From: Cytophagales bacterium
GTDB taxonomy: Bacteria; Bacteroidota; Bacteroidia; Cytophagales; JAHDFW01
NCBI GenBank assembly: GCA_020627945.1
Contig: JAHDFW010000022.1
Location: forward strand, 1-32,329
Direction: 5' to 3'
DNA length: 32,329 nucleotides
Shown here: positions 3,930 through 26,665 of the stretch, in pieces
Position numbering within the stretch: the first letter of the stretch is position 1
How the letters are laid out: every line of letters starts with the position of its first letter
Program-made: the position numbers and the translations under genes
The notes under the pieces: model-generated
The model's database searches: none
Seen by the model: the letters and a program-made list of their open reading frames with translations, nothing else
Told to the model about the DNA's origin: nothing

Positions 3930-4349
3930 ATGGAAAATTACCTATTGGATAGGAAATTAGATGAGATCCCTAAAATCAGCTTAAATGCTGGTACTCATCG
4001 TCTAGAATTTGTTGGGAAATCGTGGCCTGAAAACACGGTTAAATTGTATGCGCCTGTTCTTGATTGGTTGGAACGGTACAAAAGTTATTTAGGCCAACCT
4101 GGAGGTTCGGTAGGAAGTAACTCTGTACTGGTAAAATTCGAATTTGAATATCTCAATTCAGCCACTTCTGTAATGCTTCGAAGAATTTTAGATGCCATAA
4201 AAGCTATTCAGGTAGAAACGAAAGTAAATATTAAAGTAGAGTGGCATTATGTGGAGTTGGATGATGATATTTTTGGACTTGGAAGAGAGTTAGAAATGTA
4301 CTCAGAATTGTCTTTCGTGTTTTTTCCTATTCAATTGGAGGACTATTAA
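3930..4349 (+). CDS. DUF1987 / SiaC-family regulatory phosphoprotein
   Basis: A 139-residue cytoplasmic protein of the DUF1987 (SiaC) family. In Pseudomonas SiaC is switched by a kinase (SiaB) and a PP2C-type phosphatase (SiaA) and controls a diguanylate cyclase. Family features seen: an early PKISL strand, the SWPENTVKLYAPVLDWLE segment (about residues 31-48) and the FEYLNSATSVMLRRILDAI stretch near 72-90, where S77/T79/S80 sit at the place of the usual phospho-site; which residue is used is not shown. No kinase or phosphatase gene lies beside it. A strong promoter is directly upstream with almost no 5' leader. Partner function here is inference. Confidence 0.85.
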   Translation: MENYLLDRKLDEIPKISLNAGTHRLEFVGKSWPENTVKLYAPVLDWLERYKSYLGQPGGSVGSNSVLVKFEFEYLNSATSVMLRRILDAIKAIQVETKVNIKVEWHYVELDDDIFGLGRELEMYSELSFVFFPIQLEDY

Positions 4350-5536: not shown

Positions 5537-6382
5537 ATGAAATTACATGTAATAAACACAGGTTTTTTTAAACTGGATGGAGGAGCAATGTTTGGAGTTG
5601 TTCCTAAGTCGTTATGGCAACGTACCAATCCAGCAGATCAAAACAACATGTGCAATTGGGCAATGCGTTGCTTGCTGATTGAAGATGGAGATAGACTAAT
5701 TTTGATTGATAACGGTATTGGTGATAAGCAAACAGAGAAATTCTTTAGTTATTACTATTTACACGGTGATGATTCTCTTCAAAAGTCTCTCAATCAAAAA
5801 GGATTTGACTTCTCCGATATCACGGATGTGTTTATGACCCATTTACATTTTGATCATTGCGGTGGAGGTGTGAAATGGAATAAAGATAGGACAGGTTATG
5901 AACTTGTATTTCCGAATGCTAGATATTGGTCTAATAAAGAGCACTGGGAGTGGGCTACTCAACCAAATGCTCGTGAGAAGGCGAGTTTTCTAAAAGAGAA
6001 TATAATGCCAATTCAAGAAAGCGGACAATTGAACTTCGTAGATGTAAATCAACCATCACCATTTACTCAATTTGATATTTTCTTTGCTGATGGTCATACA
6101 GAAAAACAAATGATTCCAATCATTAATTACAAAGGGAATAAGGTCGCGTTTATGGCTGACTTATTACCTTCTGTTGGACATATTCCTTTACCATATGTTA
6201 TGGGATATGACACAAGACCTTTATTGACTTTAGGGGAAAAAGAGCATTTTCTAAATAGGGTAGTGAATGAGGAAATGATACTATTTTTAGAGCATGATGG
6301 AGAGAACGAATGTTGCACTTTAAAGCAGACGGAAAAAGGTCCTCGACTTGGAGAAACTCTTGTTTTAAGCGATTTAGGTTAA
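5537..6382 (+). CDS. Metallo-beta-lactamase-fold hydrolase
   Basis: A 281-residue soluble MBL-fold enzyme. The zinc motif HxHxDH is complete: H102, H104, D106, H107 in THLHFDHCGG. Later metal ligands are visible as H in the FFADGHTEKQ segment, D in MADLLPSVGH and H in FLEHDGEN. The N-terminal GGAMFGVVPK segment and the layout are like the quorum-quenching-lactonase/YtnP-like branch of the superfamily, but the substrate cannot be read from sequence. No signal peptide, so the protein is probably cytoplasmic. It starts 102 bases after accA, beyond a terminator, and thus is likely transcribed on its own. Confidence 0.85.
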   Translation: MKLHVINTGFFKLDGGAMFGVVPKSLWQRTNPADQNNMCNWAMRCLLIEDGDRLILIDNGIGDKQTEKFFSYYYLHGDDSLQKSLNQKGFDFSDITDVFMTHLHFDHCGGGVKWNKDRTGYELVFPNARYWSNKEHWEWATQPNAREKASFLKENIMPIQESGQLNFVDVNQPSPFTQFDIFFADGHTEKQMIPIINYKGNKVAFMADLLPSVGHIPLPYVMGYDTRPLLTLGEKEHFLNRVVNEEMILFLEHDGENECCTLKQTEKGPRLGETLVLSDLG

Positions 6383-18352: not shown

Positions 18353-18787
18353 ATGTTTTCAAAATCTTGTGAATATGCGTTTCGAGCCTTGATATATATA
18401 GGTTTGTGTTCTCAGAAAGGTGAGAAGACAAGTTTGAAATATATTGCAGAAAATATTGATTCTCCTCAGTCATTCACAGCGAAAATATTACAAAAGTTGT
18501 CTAAGGCTAATATTTTGGTTTCTGAAAAAGGGGCGAACGGGGGATTTATAATTACACAAGAGAAGCTTCAGACGACACGGTTATATGATGTGGTAATTGT
18601 GGTTGATGGGGATAAAATCTTTACGGGTTGCGCATTAGGGTTGGTAAAATGCAATAGTGAAAAACCTTGCCCGTTGCATTACTCATTCCTAGAAGTACGT
18701 GAGAAACTAAGAAAGACTATGTTGCATACTAATTTGGAAGATATGGTAAATGGTGCTTCTGATGGAAGCTCTGTTTTAAGACTTTAA
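18353..18787 (+). CDS. Rrf2-family iron-sulfur transcriptional regulator (IscR/NsrR-like)
   Basis: A 144-residue winged helix protein of the Rrf2 family. The N terminus (FSKSCEYAFRALIYIGL) and the wing KGANGGF (about 59-65) are typical. Three Cys, C93, C100 and C106 (spacing 6 and 5), lie where IscR and NsrR bind their Fe-S cluster, so it may sense iron-sulfur status, redox or nitric oxide. The CALGLVKCNSEKPCPLH text fits this group in Bacteroidota. A dyad operator lies in its own promoter and a near-copy in the promoter region of the next gene, which suggests autoregulation plus a target. The signal is not decidable from sequence. Confidence 0.9.
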   Translation: MFSKSCEYAFRALIYIGLCSQKGEKTSLKYIAENIDSPQSFTAKILQKLSKANILVSEKGANGGFIITQEKLQTTRLYDVVIVVDGDKIFTGCALGLVKCNSEKPCPLHYSFLEVREKLRKTMLHTNLEDMVNGASDGSSVLRL

Positions 18788-24507: not shown

Positions 24508-25233
24508 ATGAAAGTAGAGATCTTCATTCCTTGTTTTATTGATCAATTATATCCTGATACAGGATTCAACATGGTTAAAATACTTGAAAAACTGGGGTGT
24601 GAAGTTCATTACAATACCAACCAAACTTGTTGCGGACAACCTGCTTACAACTCTGGTTTTTTCGACGAAGCTCGTGATGTAGCGAAAAAATGTCTTACGG
24701 ACTTAAACTCTGACGCAGACTATATTGTAATTCCCTCTGCTTCTTGTGGCGGAATGATTAAACATGGATATAAAGAACTTTTTAAGCAATCTACAGACGT
24801 TCAAACCTATCAAGAATTCACAAAAAAGGTGTATGAATTCACTGAATTTGTGGTAGATGTTCTTAAAGTAGATAGGATAGAAGGTGCTCGTTTAGATGGC
24901 GTAGTCACCTATCATGATTCTTGTTCTGCGCAAAGGGAGTGTGGAATTAAATCTCAACCTCGAACTTTACTGAACAATGTCGAGGGGTTGACGTTGGTGG
25001 AAATGAGTAATACAAACGATTGTTGTGGCTTTGGTGGTAGTTTTGCGGTAAAGTTTGAACCTATTTCAATTGGGATGGGAGATCAAAAGATTAACAGCGC
25101 TTTAGAAACCAAAGCGGAATATCTTGTATCAGGAGATTTATCTTGCCTAATGCACCTTGGAGGTTATATTGAGAAACAAGGTAAACCTTTGAAACCAATG
25201 CACATTATTGATGTTTTAGCATCTGGATGGTAG
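24508..25233 (+). CDS. CCG-domain (Fe-S)-binding protein, LutA/YkgE-like
   Basis: A 241-residue protein with two CCG domains. C41-C42-G43 (CCGQPAYNSG) and a later CCGFGGSF, with the partner Cys in IPCFID (C9), SASCGG, HDSCSAQREC and SGDLSC. This is the domain pair of LutA, YkgE and the glycolate/heterodisulfide reductase families. In Bacillus LutA works with LutB and LutC in lactate oxidation; those partners are not in this window, so a stand-alone Bacteroidota version is likely. A small repeat GTTAAC-AAA-GTTAAC lies 11 bases before the ATG. Its stop codon is 2 bases from that of the convergent gene. Confidence 0.88.
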   Translation: MKVEIFIPCFIDQLYPDTGFNMVKILEKLGCEVHYNTNQTCCGQPAYNSGFFDEARDVAKKCLTDLNSDADYIVIPSASCGGMIKHGYKELFKQSTDVQTYQEFTKKVYEFTEFVVDVLKVDRIEGARLDGVVTYHDSCSAQRECGIKSQPRTLLNNVEGLTLVEMSNTNDCCGFGGSFAVKFEPISIGMGDQKINSALETKAEYLVSGDLSCLMHLGGYIEKQGKPLKPMHIIDVLASGW

Positions 25234-25235
25234 AT

Positions 25236-26225
25236 CTAATGATCTCCTGAGTGCTCTTTTTTATTGGACTCCTTTGATTTGTTTTTATCACTGTTCTGGT
25301 CACCGTGATGTTCGCCATGATCAAAATGTTCATGCTCCTCATCCTCCTCATCTTCTTCGTGCTCATGATGTCCGCCATGACTATCTTGCTTACCAAAATG
25401 AAATACCAATTGTCCATTAATCGAATAATATAGATTCGGAATAGGAGCAATTGGTTTATTATCATAGAACCAATCGTATGATACTGAAAAGCTAAACCTG
25501 TCATTAAATTCATAATCAAGATTAGCAACACCTGCAAATCTATTTTGGCCATCGAAATTTGGTAAACCTTGCAAGTAACATTTAAACCCTCCAGTAATAT
25601 GAGGAGTCAATTTGTGATAGGCACCAAAGTAAAGATTAAACTTTAAGTACTCAACATTCACCAATGTATCTACGTGATCATATTCTTCCAAAATGCTCCC
25701 CGAATAATTCCAAGCTTCATTCTCATACATTAAGCCAGTCCCACAGTTTATCATACCATCGGGAGACTCAAACAGTTTATACCTAAGGTTTGAACCAACC
25801 AAATACCTTTTCTCCATACCTCTAATTCCATCCCATTGATATTGCGTGAAAAATTCAGGTGTAATTTTTTGATTTGGTGCAAGTCGGTATCTCAAATGAG
25901 AAAAGCCTTTATTAACGAGTTGTTGACCTTCAGAAACCAATACATAGTTACTCAATACGAGCATTAAATCACTTTGTTTAACCTTTGCCGTAACATTAAA
26001 CCTTCCGTGAATTTTATGAATTAAAAACTTCTGTTTAATCCCGTGATATCCAACATCAAAATTTCCAATAACCTTGTGTAAACTATCCACTTCTTCATAA
26101 AAACGTTCCGCATTAAGGATTTGTCCAACAGAGCAGATAGGAGTAAAGAAGACACCTACTACCAAGAGCAATACACAAGTATATGTTTTTGGAATTTTAA
26201 AATTCCTTAAAAGTCCCGTTCTCAT
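25236..26225 (-). CDS. DUF481-like outer-membrane protein with His/acid-rich tail
   Basis: A 329-residue protein with a signal peptide (about residues 1-35, hydrophobic TYTCVLLLVVGVFF, cleavage after SVGQ). The centre matches the DUF481 outer-membrane family pattern (VLVSEGQQLVNKGFSHLRYRLAPN; EFFTQYQWDGIRGMEKRYLVGSNLRYKLF). The last 51 residues, from about 279 on, are a low-complexity tail with 11 His and many Asp/Glu, which could bind metal ions. The only Met before the signal peptide is at 26225, so the start overlaps the upstream XRE gene by 29 bases, which suggests translational coupling. It converges with the CCG-protein gene with no terminator between. Confidence 0.72.
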   Translation of the reverse strand: MRTGLLRNFKIPKTYTCVLLLVVGVFFTPICSVGQILNAERFYEEVDSLHKVIGNFDVGYHGIKQKFLIHKIHGRFNVTAKVKQSDLMLVLSNYVLVSEGQQLVNKGFSHLRYRLAPNQKITPEFFTQYQWDGIRGMEKRYLVGSNLRYKLFESPDGMINCGTGLMYENEAWNYSGSILEEYDHVDTLVNVEYLKFNLYFGAYHKLTPHITGGFKCYLQGLPNFDGQNRFAGVANLDYEFNDRFSFSVSYDWFYDNKPIAPIPNLYYSINGQLVFHFGKQDSHGGHHEHEEDEEDEEHEHFDHGEHHGDQNSDKNKSKESNKKEHSGDH

Positions 26226-26526
26226 AAAACGCTATTATTTTAGAAACATCCGAATTTGCATTCTTACATTGATCAAGTACATCCTCAAGTGAACTAGCCT
26301 TAAAATCAATAGTTTCGGTACGAATCATATCTCCATGACCAAGTAAAAGCCAATCACCAGAGATGGTTGGAAATGAGGCCAAAATTTTCATCACAAAATC
26401 TAAACTAGGTTTGTTCCGTCCACTAAAGATATGGGACATGGTAGCCTTTGGCACTCCTAACACTTCAGACATTTGTGTAGCACTATATCCAAAATGATTT
26501 TGTAATGTTTTAATCCTATCTACCAT
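26197..26526 (-). CDS. XRE-family helix-turn-helix regulator
   Basis: A 109-residue protein. The N-terminal helix-turn-helix (residues about 4-60) reads TQMSEVLGVPKATMSHIFSGRNKPSLDFVMKIL, a classic Xre/Cro pattern. The C-terminal part is a short helical segment (EDVLDQCKNANSDVSKIIAFYENGTF) with unknown sensing role. The stop codon lies inside the start region of the DUF481 protein gene, so the two are likely one transcript and perhaps one regulatory unit. An imperfect dyad CCTA-AAA-TAGG lies upstream at 26539-26549 and could be its own operator; this is weak. Confidence 0.88.
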   Translation of the reverse strand: MVDRIKTLQNHFGYSATQMSEVLGVPKATMSHIFSGRNKPSLDFVMKILASFPTISGDWLLLGHGDMIRTETIDFKASSLEDVLDQCKNANSDVSKIIAFYENGTFKEF

Positions 26527-26600
26527 AGTTGGTGGAATCCTAAAATAGGGGACCTCTCAAACCGAATTACAAGTAAAGAAGAATTTATCTTCTATAAAAC

Positions 26601-26630
26601 AAAAAACCCTGACATTTCTAGCCAGGGTTT
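26601..26630 (-). terminator. Terminator of the OmpA-TPR lipoprotein gene
   Basis: AAACCCTG (26604-26611) pairs with CAGGGTTT (26623-26630) around an 11-base loop. On the minus strand it is followed by six T and then TGTTTT, so it ends the gene that stops at 26666. Confidence 0.82.
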
Positions 26631-26665
26631 CTCTTTGTGTTATGTAGTATTTTTTATCGATTCAA

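Follow-up and report, generated by a model that had tools for sequence, protein, structure and literature searches.

The stretch of DNA that we analysed (the window) is a 32,329-nucleotide contig, C154, of the draft genome of a Cytophagales bacterium (3.87 Mb in 227 contigs, 88.6% complete), which is the sole genome of its family sampled. On the minus strand, a gene for a small XRE-family regulator runs into a gene for a DUF481 outer-membrane barrel, and the latter is met by a convergent gene with CCG Cys-rich domains, which we take to be LutA-like (Table 1). The stop codons of the barrel and of the convergent gene are 2 bases apart, which is too close for a terminator to fit between the genes. 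A terminator-like hairpin lies on the other side of the pair, after an upstream TPR gene; if it ends the TPR unit, 74 bases remain up to the XRE start codon. Because the region holds one such site against a mean of 1.3 in shuffled sequences, this hairpin is weak evidence that a new unit starts with the regulator. Matches to sigma-70-type promoters (4, against 9.5 in shuffles) were fewer than chance and uninformative. Of the window proteins, 17 were scanned with Pfam, and none of these was named as a metal transporter or chaperone. Just one regulator of the same set, of the Rrf2 family (18353-18784, plus strand), has a Pfam description that refers to metal, and a metallo-beta-lactamase-fold protein (5537-6382) carries the other metal-linked name; a SiaC-family regulatory phosphoprotein is encoded at 3930-4349 (plus strand).

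Table 1. Genes and sequence features of the XRE/barrel locus (positions are those of the window).
Feature	Position	Strand	Basis or remark
Convergent gene with CCG Cys-rich domains	24508-25233	+	ORF list, Pfam
DUF481 outer-membrane barrel gene, 329 aa	25236-26225	-	ORF, Pfam, alignment A1
His/Asp/Glu-rich tail, residues 278-329	25239-25394	-	Composition, model; predicted to be periplasmic
12-stranded beta-barrel, residues 52-277	25395-26072	-	AlphaFold2 model, matches to solved barrels
Signal peptide region, about residues 1-35	26121-26225	-	By eye; helix 13-30 in model
XRE-family regulator gene, 109 aa	26197-26526	-	ORF, Pfam HTH_3, model
XRE/barrel gene overlap, 29 bases	26197-26225	-	ORF coordinates
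XRE C-terminal motif and hairpin, residues 98-109	26200-26235	-	Strands 98-100 and 106-108 in model
Contracted palindrome TTACTTGTAA (minus strand)	26567-26576		Upstream of XRE; possible diverged operator, weak
Terminator-like hairpin, 13 pairs and T run	26601-26633	-	After upstream TPR gene, before XRE

The original prediction described an XRE regulator that shares 29 bases, in a different frame, with a DUF481 outer-membrane protein ending in a 51-residue tail with 11 His and many acidic residues. This description was borne out: the barrel protein scores 32.6 bits against Pfam DUF481 (cut-off 21.1; residues 74-258) and the regulator 29.9 bits against HTH_3 (cut-off 23), with Phage_CI_repr also above its own cut-off, the overlap is present as described, and the tail, which we count as 52 residues from the end of the family profile, had been placed correctly within one residue. 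The overlap is probably real, since its XRE side encodes ENGTFKEF (residues 102-109), the end of a motif present in all 35 XRE family members, and since a barrel started from the next possible codon, the TTG at residue 19, would lose part of its hydrophobic signal segment. As judged from the sequences, the 5' end of the barrel gene, which encodes the beginning of the signal region, coincides with a C-terminal stretch of the XRE that is under constraint. Mainly on the grounds of this overlap, the two genes are likely to form one transcription unit, perhaps with translational coupling.

The barrel is the only DUF481 match in its own genome, and a search of the genome's contigs with its sequence returned no relative. 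A single-sequence search of the order gave matches in 69 of 291 genomes. For more distant relatives we used a profile of alignment A1, which comprises the window protein and 46 of 49 non-redundant relatives (the short L058, L059 and L067 were left out); DUF481 is above cut-off in 40 of these 47 members, window protein counted. This profile matched in 123 of 395 genomes of the class and in at least 238 of 390 genomes of the order, many of the matches in both being weak and over part of the profile. The window barrel shares 20-29% identity with its aligned relatives. Plasmid records yielded one match, from Prevotella nigrescens (25% identity, residues 17-277, i.e., without the tail). The best sequence match in the PDB (E 0.064) was a restriction enzyme and is not credible for a barrel.

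In the AlphaFold2 model (mean pLDDT 77.7, pTM 0.68), 12 strands are found between residues 52 and 277, their ten-residue blocks reaching pLDDT 66-97 and most of them exceeding 80. Foldseek ranked NanC first for this model, while VIA-align gave better ranks to autotransporter barrels (EstA, AaaA, NalP; Z 17) and to Tsx than to KdgM, NanC and PcoB (Z 16.7 to 14.5); OmpG was also among the structural matches. Such matches indicate a barrel of this size and say nothing on function. The DUF481 family (PF04338, TCDB 1.B.75) is listed with 277 +/- 41 aa and 12 strands, and as including Bacteroidetes, in the family entry of PMC4827864. The window protein agrees with this in its Pfam match, its 12 modelled strands and its 277 residues without the tail. 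With the tail it has 329 aa, just beyond one deviation, and it differs from all 206 of its other full-length relatives in the 52 residues that follow the last strand. Up to the end of its last strand, then, the barrel is an ordinary DUF481 protein. Its signal region, fold and family point to export and to a place in the outer membrane. The three longest loops of the model (174-187, 221-228 and 256-264) sit opposite the termini, and the other loops on that side are short. A barrel of 12 strands with an N-terminal signal is expected to have its two ends in the periplasm, and the longest loops are then outside. The tail therefore probably faces the periplasm in this model, and the view of a surface protein, as far as the tail is concerned, probably does not hold.

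The tail itself is set apart by its composition. Its 52 residues, which follow the end of the profile at residue 277, contain 11 His and 18 Asp/Glu, and are of low confidence and unstructured in the AlphaFold2 model. At a mean His frequency of 2.3%, the binomial probability of at least 11 His in 52 residues is 2e-8. We also took ORFs of 150 aa or more mechanically from 215 loci, 530 in total, and counted the His in their 52 C-terminal residues: the window barrel alone exceeds 8, and one other ORF, perhaps a shadow frame, reached 8. The tail DNA holds just one tandem repeat, 2.6 copies of a 9-mer, and the codons are mixed (CAT 8, CAC 3; GAG 7, GAA 4), which rules out a simple DNA repeat artefact as the origin of the tail.

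The 284 loci examined contain 227 distinct barrel ORFs that are complete at the 3' end (the window's included), and 207 of these reach the end of the profile. Tails of at least 10 residues occur in five barrels, namely that of the window (52), L209 (34), L206 (20), L062 (15) and L023 (13), and those of the latter four contain 0, 0, 0 and 1 His, respectively. The final 52 residues of L182 and L193, which lie inside the barrel, include 5 and 4 His, respectively, and the remaining barrels have fewer. The conservation of the tail among relatives, which had been proposed as a check, was thus not seen: a His-rich tail is present in 0 of the 206 other full-length barrels. The tail alone, searched in the 291 genomes of the order, was found in its own genome only, in a kind of search that low-complexity sequence limits. 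The tail appears, as far as sampled, to be specific to the source genome, and a feature seen in one draft genome provides no conservation evidence of selection.

A pattern of this kind could arise from a neutral or nearly neutral event, in which loss of the stop codon behind the last strand let the gene extend into the gap before the convergent gene, as low-complexity sequence with no metal role. The presence of the tail in a single genome agrees with such an origin, as do the 199 of 207 full-length barrels that stop no more than 3 residues from the profile end, the 2-base distance to the convergent stop and the short 9-base repeat. However, such numbers of His and Asp/Glu, in mixed codons, would hardly come from random intergenic read-through, and we consider a neutral extension possible but rather unlikely.

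Other functions could also make use of these residues. By computation, the tail has a net charge of about +1 at pH 5 and of about -11 at pH 7, and OmpG, one of the structural matches of the barrel, is pH-gated, so the tail might gate or plug the barrel in response to pH or charge, instead of binding metal. We regard this as improbable, because no relative examined carries such a tail, because the literature examined, in which DUF481 occurs in the text of papers and in the title or abstract of none, mentions no pore activity for a barrel of this family, and because the clustered HxH and HH of the tail also fit metal binding. The His and acidic residues fit a charged spacer as well. A metal role of the tail on its own is plausible, as a candidate function.

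The closest precedent for a barrel with such a tail is PcoB, and the window protein would work likewise if its tail binds metal. Both combine an outer-membrane barrel with a His-rich extension, disordered in PcoB and unstructured in the model of the window protein, and the PcoB structure 7pge aligns with the barrel model at Z 14.5 (rmsd 4.1 over 190 residues). The differences are that the extension of PcoB is N-terminal and His/Met-rich, whereas the window tail is C-terminal and His/acid-rich, and that autotransporter barrels and Tsx outscore PcoB as structural matches. PcoB/CopB (TCDB 1.B.76) is listed with 10 strands in PMC4827864. Pfam comparisons with E up to 1 returned DUF481 and one sub-threshold row for the window barrel and no CopB match, so we do not class it as a PcoB. 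For the Caulobacter PcoB, the disordered N-terminal region is described as critical for function and stability; in the mutants reported there, replacement of nine His or of four Met between positions 34 and 109 led to more copper in the cells and did not alter growth under copper, and only the additional removal of residues 3-33, with eight more His, made cells as sensitive as a mutant without the genes (PMC12509749). For the E. coli PcoB, removal of residues 27-81 is reported to leave the single bound copper unaltered (PMC9210255), which advises caution against seeing a His-rich arm as the main site.

The regulator belongs to a widespread family, and a search with its sequence gave matches in 163 of the 291 genomes of the order. 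We compared 35 XRE sequences (29 from the search of the 291 genomes, 5 from a further search and the window's own), of which 32 form alignment A2 (L083, L092 and L094 were left out). The aligned sequences share the invariant residues S-H...R-N-K-P-S in the HTH, and all 35, the window's included, end in a motif of the kind FYx[DN]xxF, a pattern written after the sequences were seen. In the model of the window XRE, helices between residues 2 and 62 form the HTH and are followed by a short C-terminal beta-hairpin. The linker before the FYxDGTF-type motif is very variable in length in the family, with ORFs of 109 to 296 aa. We met no family name for XRE/HTH_3 regulators with this motif. The window XRE is like the family in its invariant HTH residues and C-terminal motif, and unlike it in being the shortest (109 aa), in being overlapped by a barrel gene and in having no TTACAnnTGTAA site at the family spacing.

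This site came from the upstream regions of the XRE genes. The word ACAAATG is found upstream of 28 of the 35 genes, and in 100 shuffles no word was present in more than 15. The palindrome TTACAnnTGTAA is matched at 9 or 10 of 10 scored positions in 26 of the 35 XRE upstreams, a count that is not independent, as the motif was derived from these same regions; 3 of 224 upstreams of barrel genes and 18 of 700 shuffles reach this score. The sites often stand in arrays, the largest with five (loci with sites include L085, L088, L093, L078, L076, L081, L092, L097 and others). Genome-wide, a double site exists at 11 places in 9 of the 291 genomes (5 genera; for example G129:C1:3418389 and G075:C1:2010096), and the reversed control pattern at none. 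Each of the 11 is followed, 42-149 bases downstream, by an XRE match, as found by comparing positions by eye, and most genomes carrying an XRE of the window type have no double site. Operator-like sites before the own gene in so many relatives point to self-regulation, for which the XRE members behind the double sites provide good sequence evidence. TAnnTTTG is a promoter element of Bacteroidota, and a single TTACAnnTGTAA site partly resembles it. A literature search for the exact TTACAnnTGTAA 12-mer and for XRE autoregulation in Bacteroidetes gave nothing on the subject, as judged by titles.

The window XRE is among the 9 of 35 members that score below 9, so that TTACAnnTGTAA does not define membership of the family; the small relatives L133-L135 (117 aa) also lack the site. 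Its upstream region has a best score of 7 of 10, the commonest score in controls, and no site at the family spacing. A 10-mer of the contracted TTACTTGTAA type occurs twice in the window, one of the two being upstream of the XRE. A further palindrome before the window XRE, CCTATTTTAGG, was dropped as an operator, being found in 0 of 34 other upstreams, with a shorter look-alike in L073 only.

The idea behind the original prediction was that regulator and barrel make up a metal-response pair, the XRE sensing metal and controlling a metal-binding envelope protein. The overlapping genes, which are likely one unit, and the metal-like tail agree with it, and a DUF481 gene appears in an iron-dependent table of a study of Prevotella intermedia (PMC10434189). 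However, the association of the two genes is not seen elsewhere. Relatives of the window XRE, the only regulators sought, lie beside the barrel in 0 of 245 other barrel loci, where the flanks searched were 1.5-2 kb on each side and shorter at contig ends, and a barrel lies in 0 of 34 other XRE loci. The barrel set comprises 250 loci, five of which are copies of the own locus and some of the others one gene fetched twice; two weak single-sequence matches, most class matches weaker than E 1e-20 and many weak order matches lie outside it. Neighbours vary on both sides of the barrel relatives and of the XRE relatives. Conservation of the pair was what the original prediction had itself made decisive, and its absence counts against a shared metal-response pair; on the sequence comparisons, the pairing looks like a one-off. 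Among the 109 residues of the regulator are 3 His and 1 Cys, with no clustered metal ligands by eye, and the sites that many relatives carry before their own gene point to self-regulation. It does not resemble a metal sensor. A metal-response pair is, in our opinion, a poor prospect, and the candidate role left for the window XRE is most likely to set the level of the unit by feedback.

Taken together, we give about even chances to the reading in which a barrel of a known family bears a lineage-specific, metal-buffering tail and shares its unit with an unrelated, feedback-acting XRE. An ordinary 12-stranded DUF481 barrel would have gained a disordered His/Glu/Asp C-terminal tail in the source lineage. 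With the barrel seated in the outer membrane after export, its C-terminus and the tail would lie on the periplasmic side, where the tail may bind divalent metal ions loosely and several at once. It could in this way buffer metals or concentrate them at the periplasmic mouth of the barrel, as is thought for the N-terminal extension of PcoB with copper. The barrel would be co-transcribed, and perhaps translationally coupled, with the small XRE, which would set the level of the unit by feedback rather than by sensing metal. It is a more remote prospect, and in our view an unlikely one, that a DUF481 barrel independently evolved a periplasmic His/acid metal-buffering arm, at the chain end opposite to that of PcoB, and was captured behind a self-regulating XRE, which would make the locus an undescribed feedback-controlled envelope buffer.

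The TTACAnnTGTAA arrays before XRE genes represent a directly testable binding site and are perhaps the more useful by-product of this analysis. DUF481 barrels are common in the genomes searched, and the family name carries no assigned function. If the tail binds metal, it would hint at the role of at least one DUF481 barrel, and would provide a second, convergent case of the PcoB design, in which a barrel is combined with a disordered metal-binding arm.
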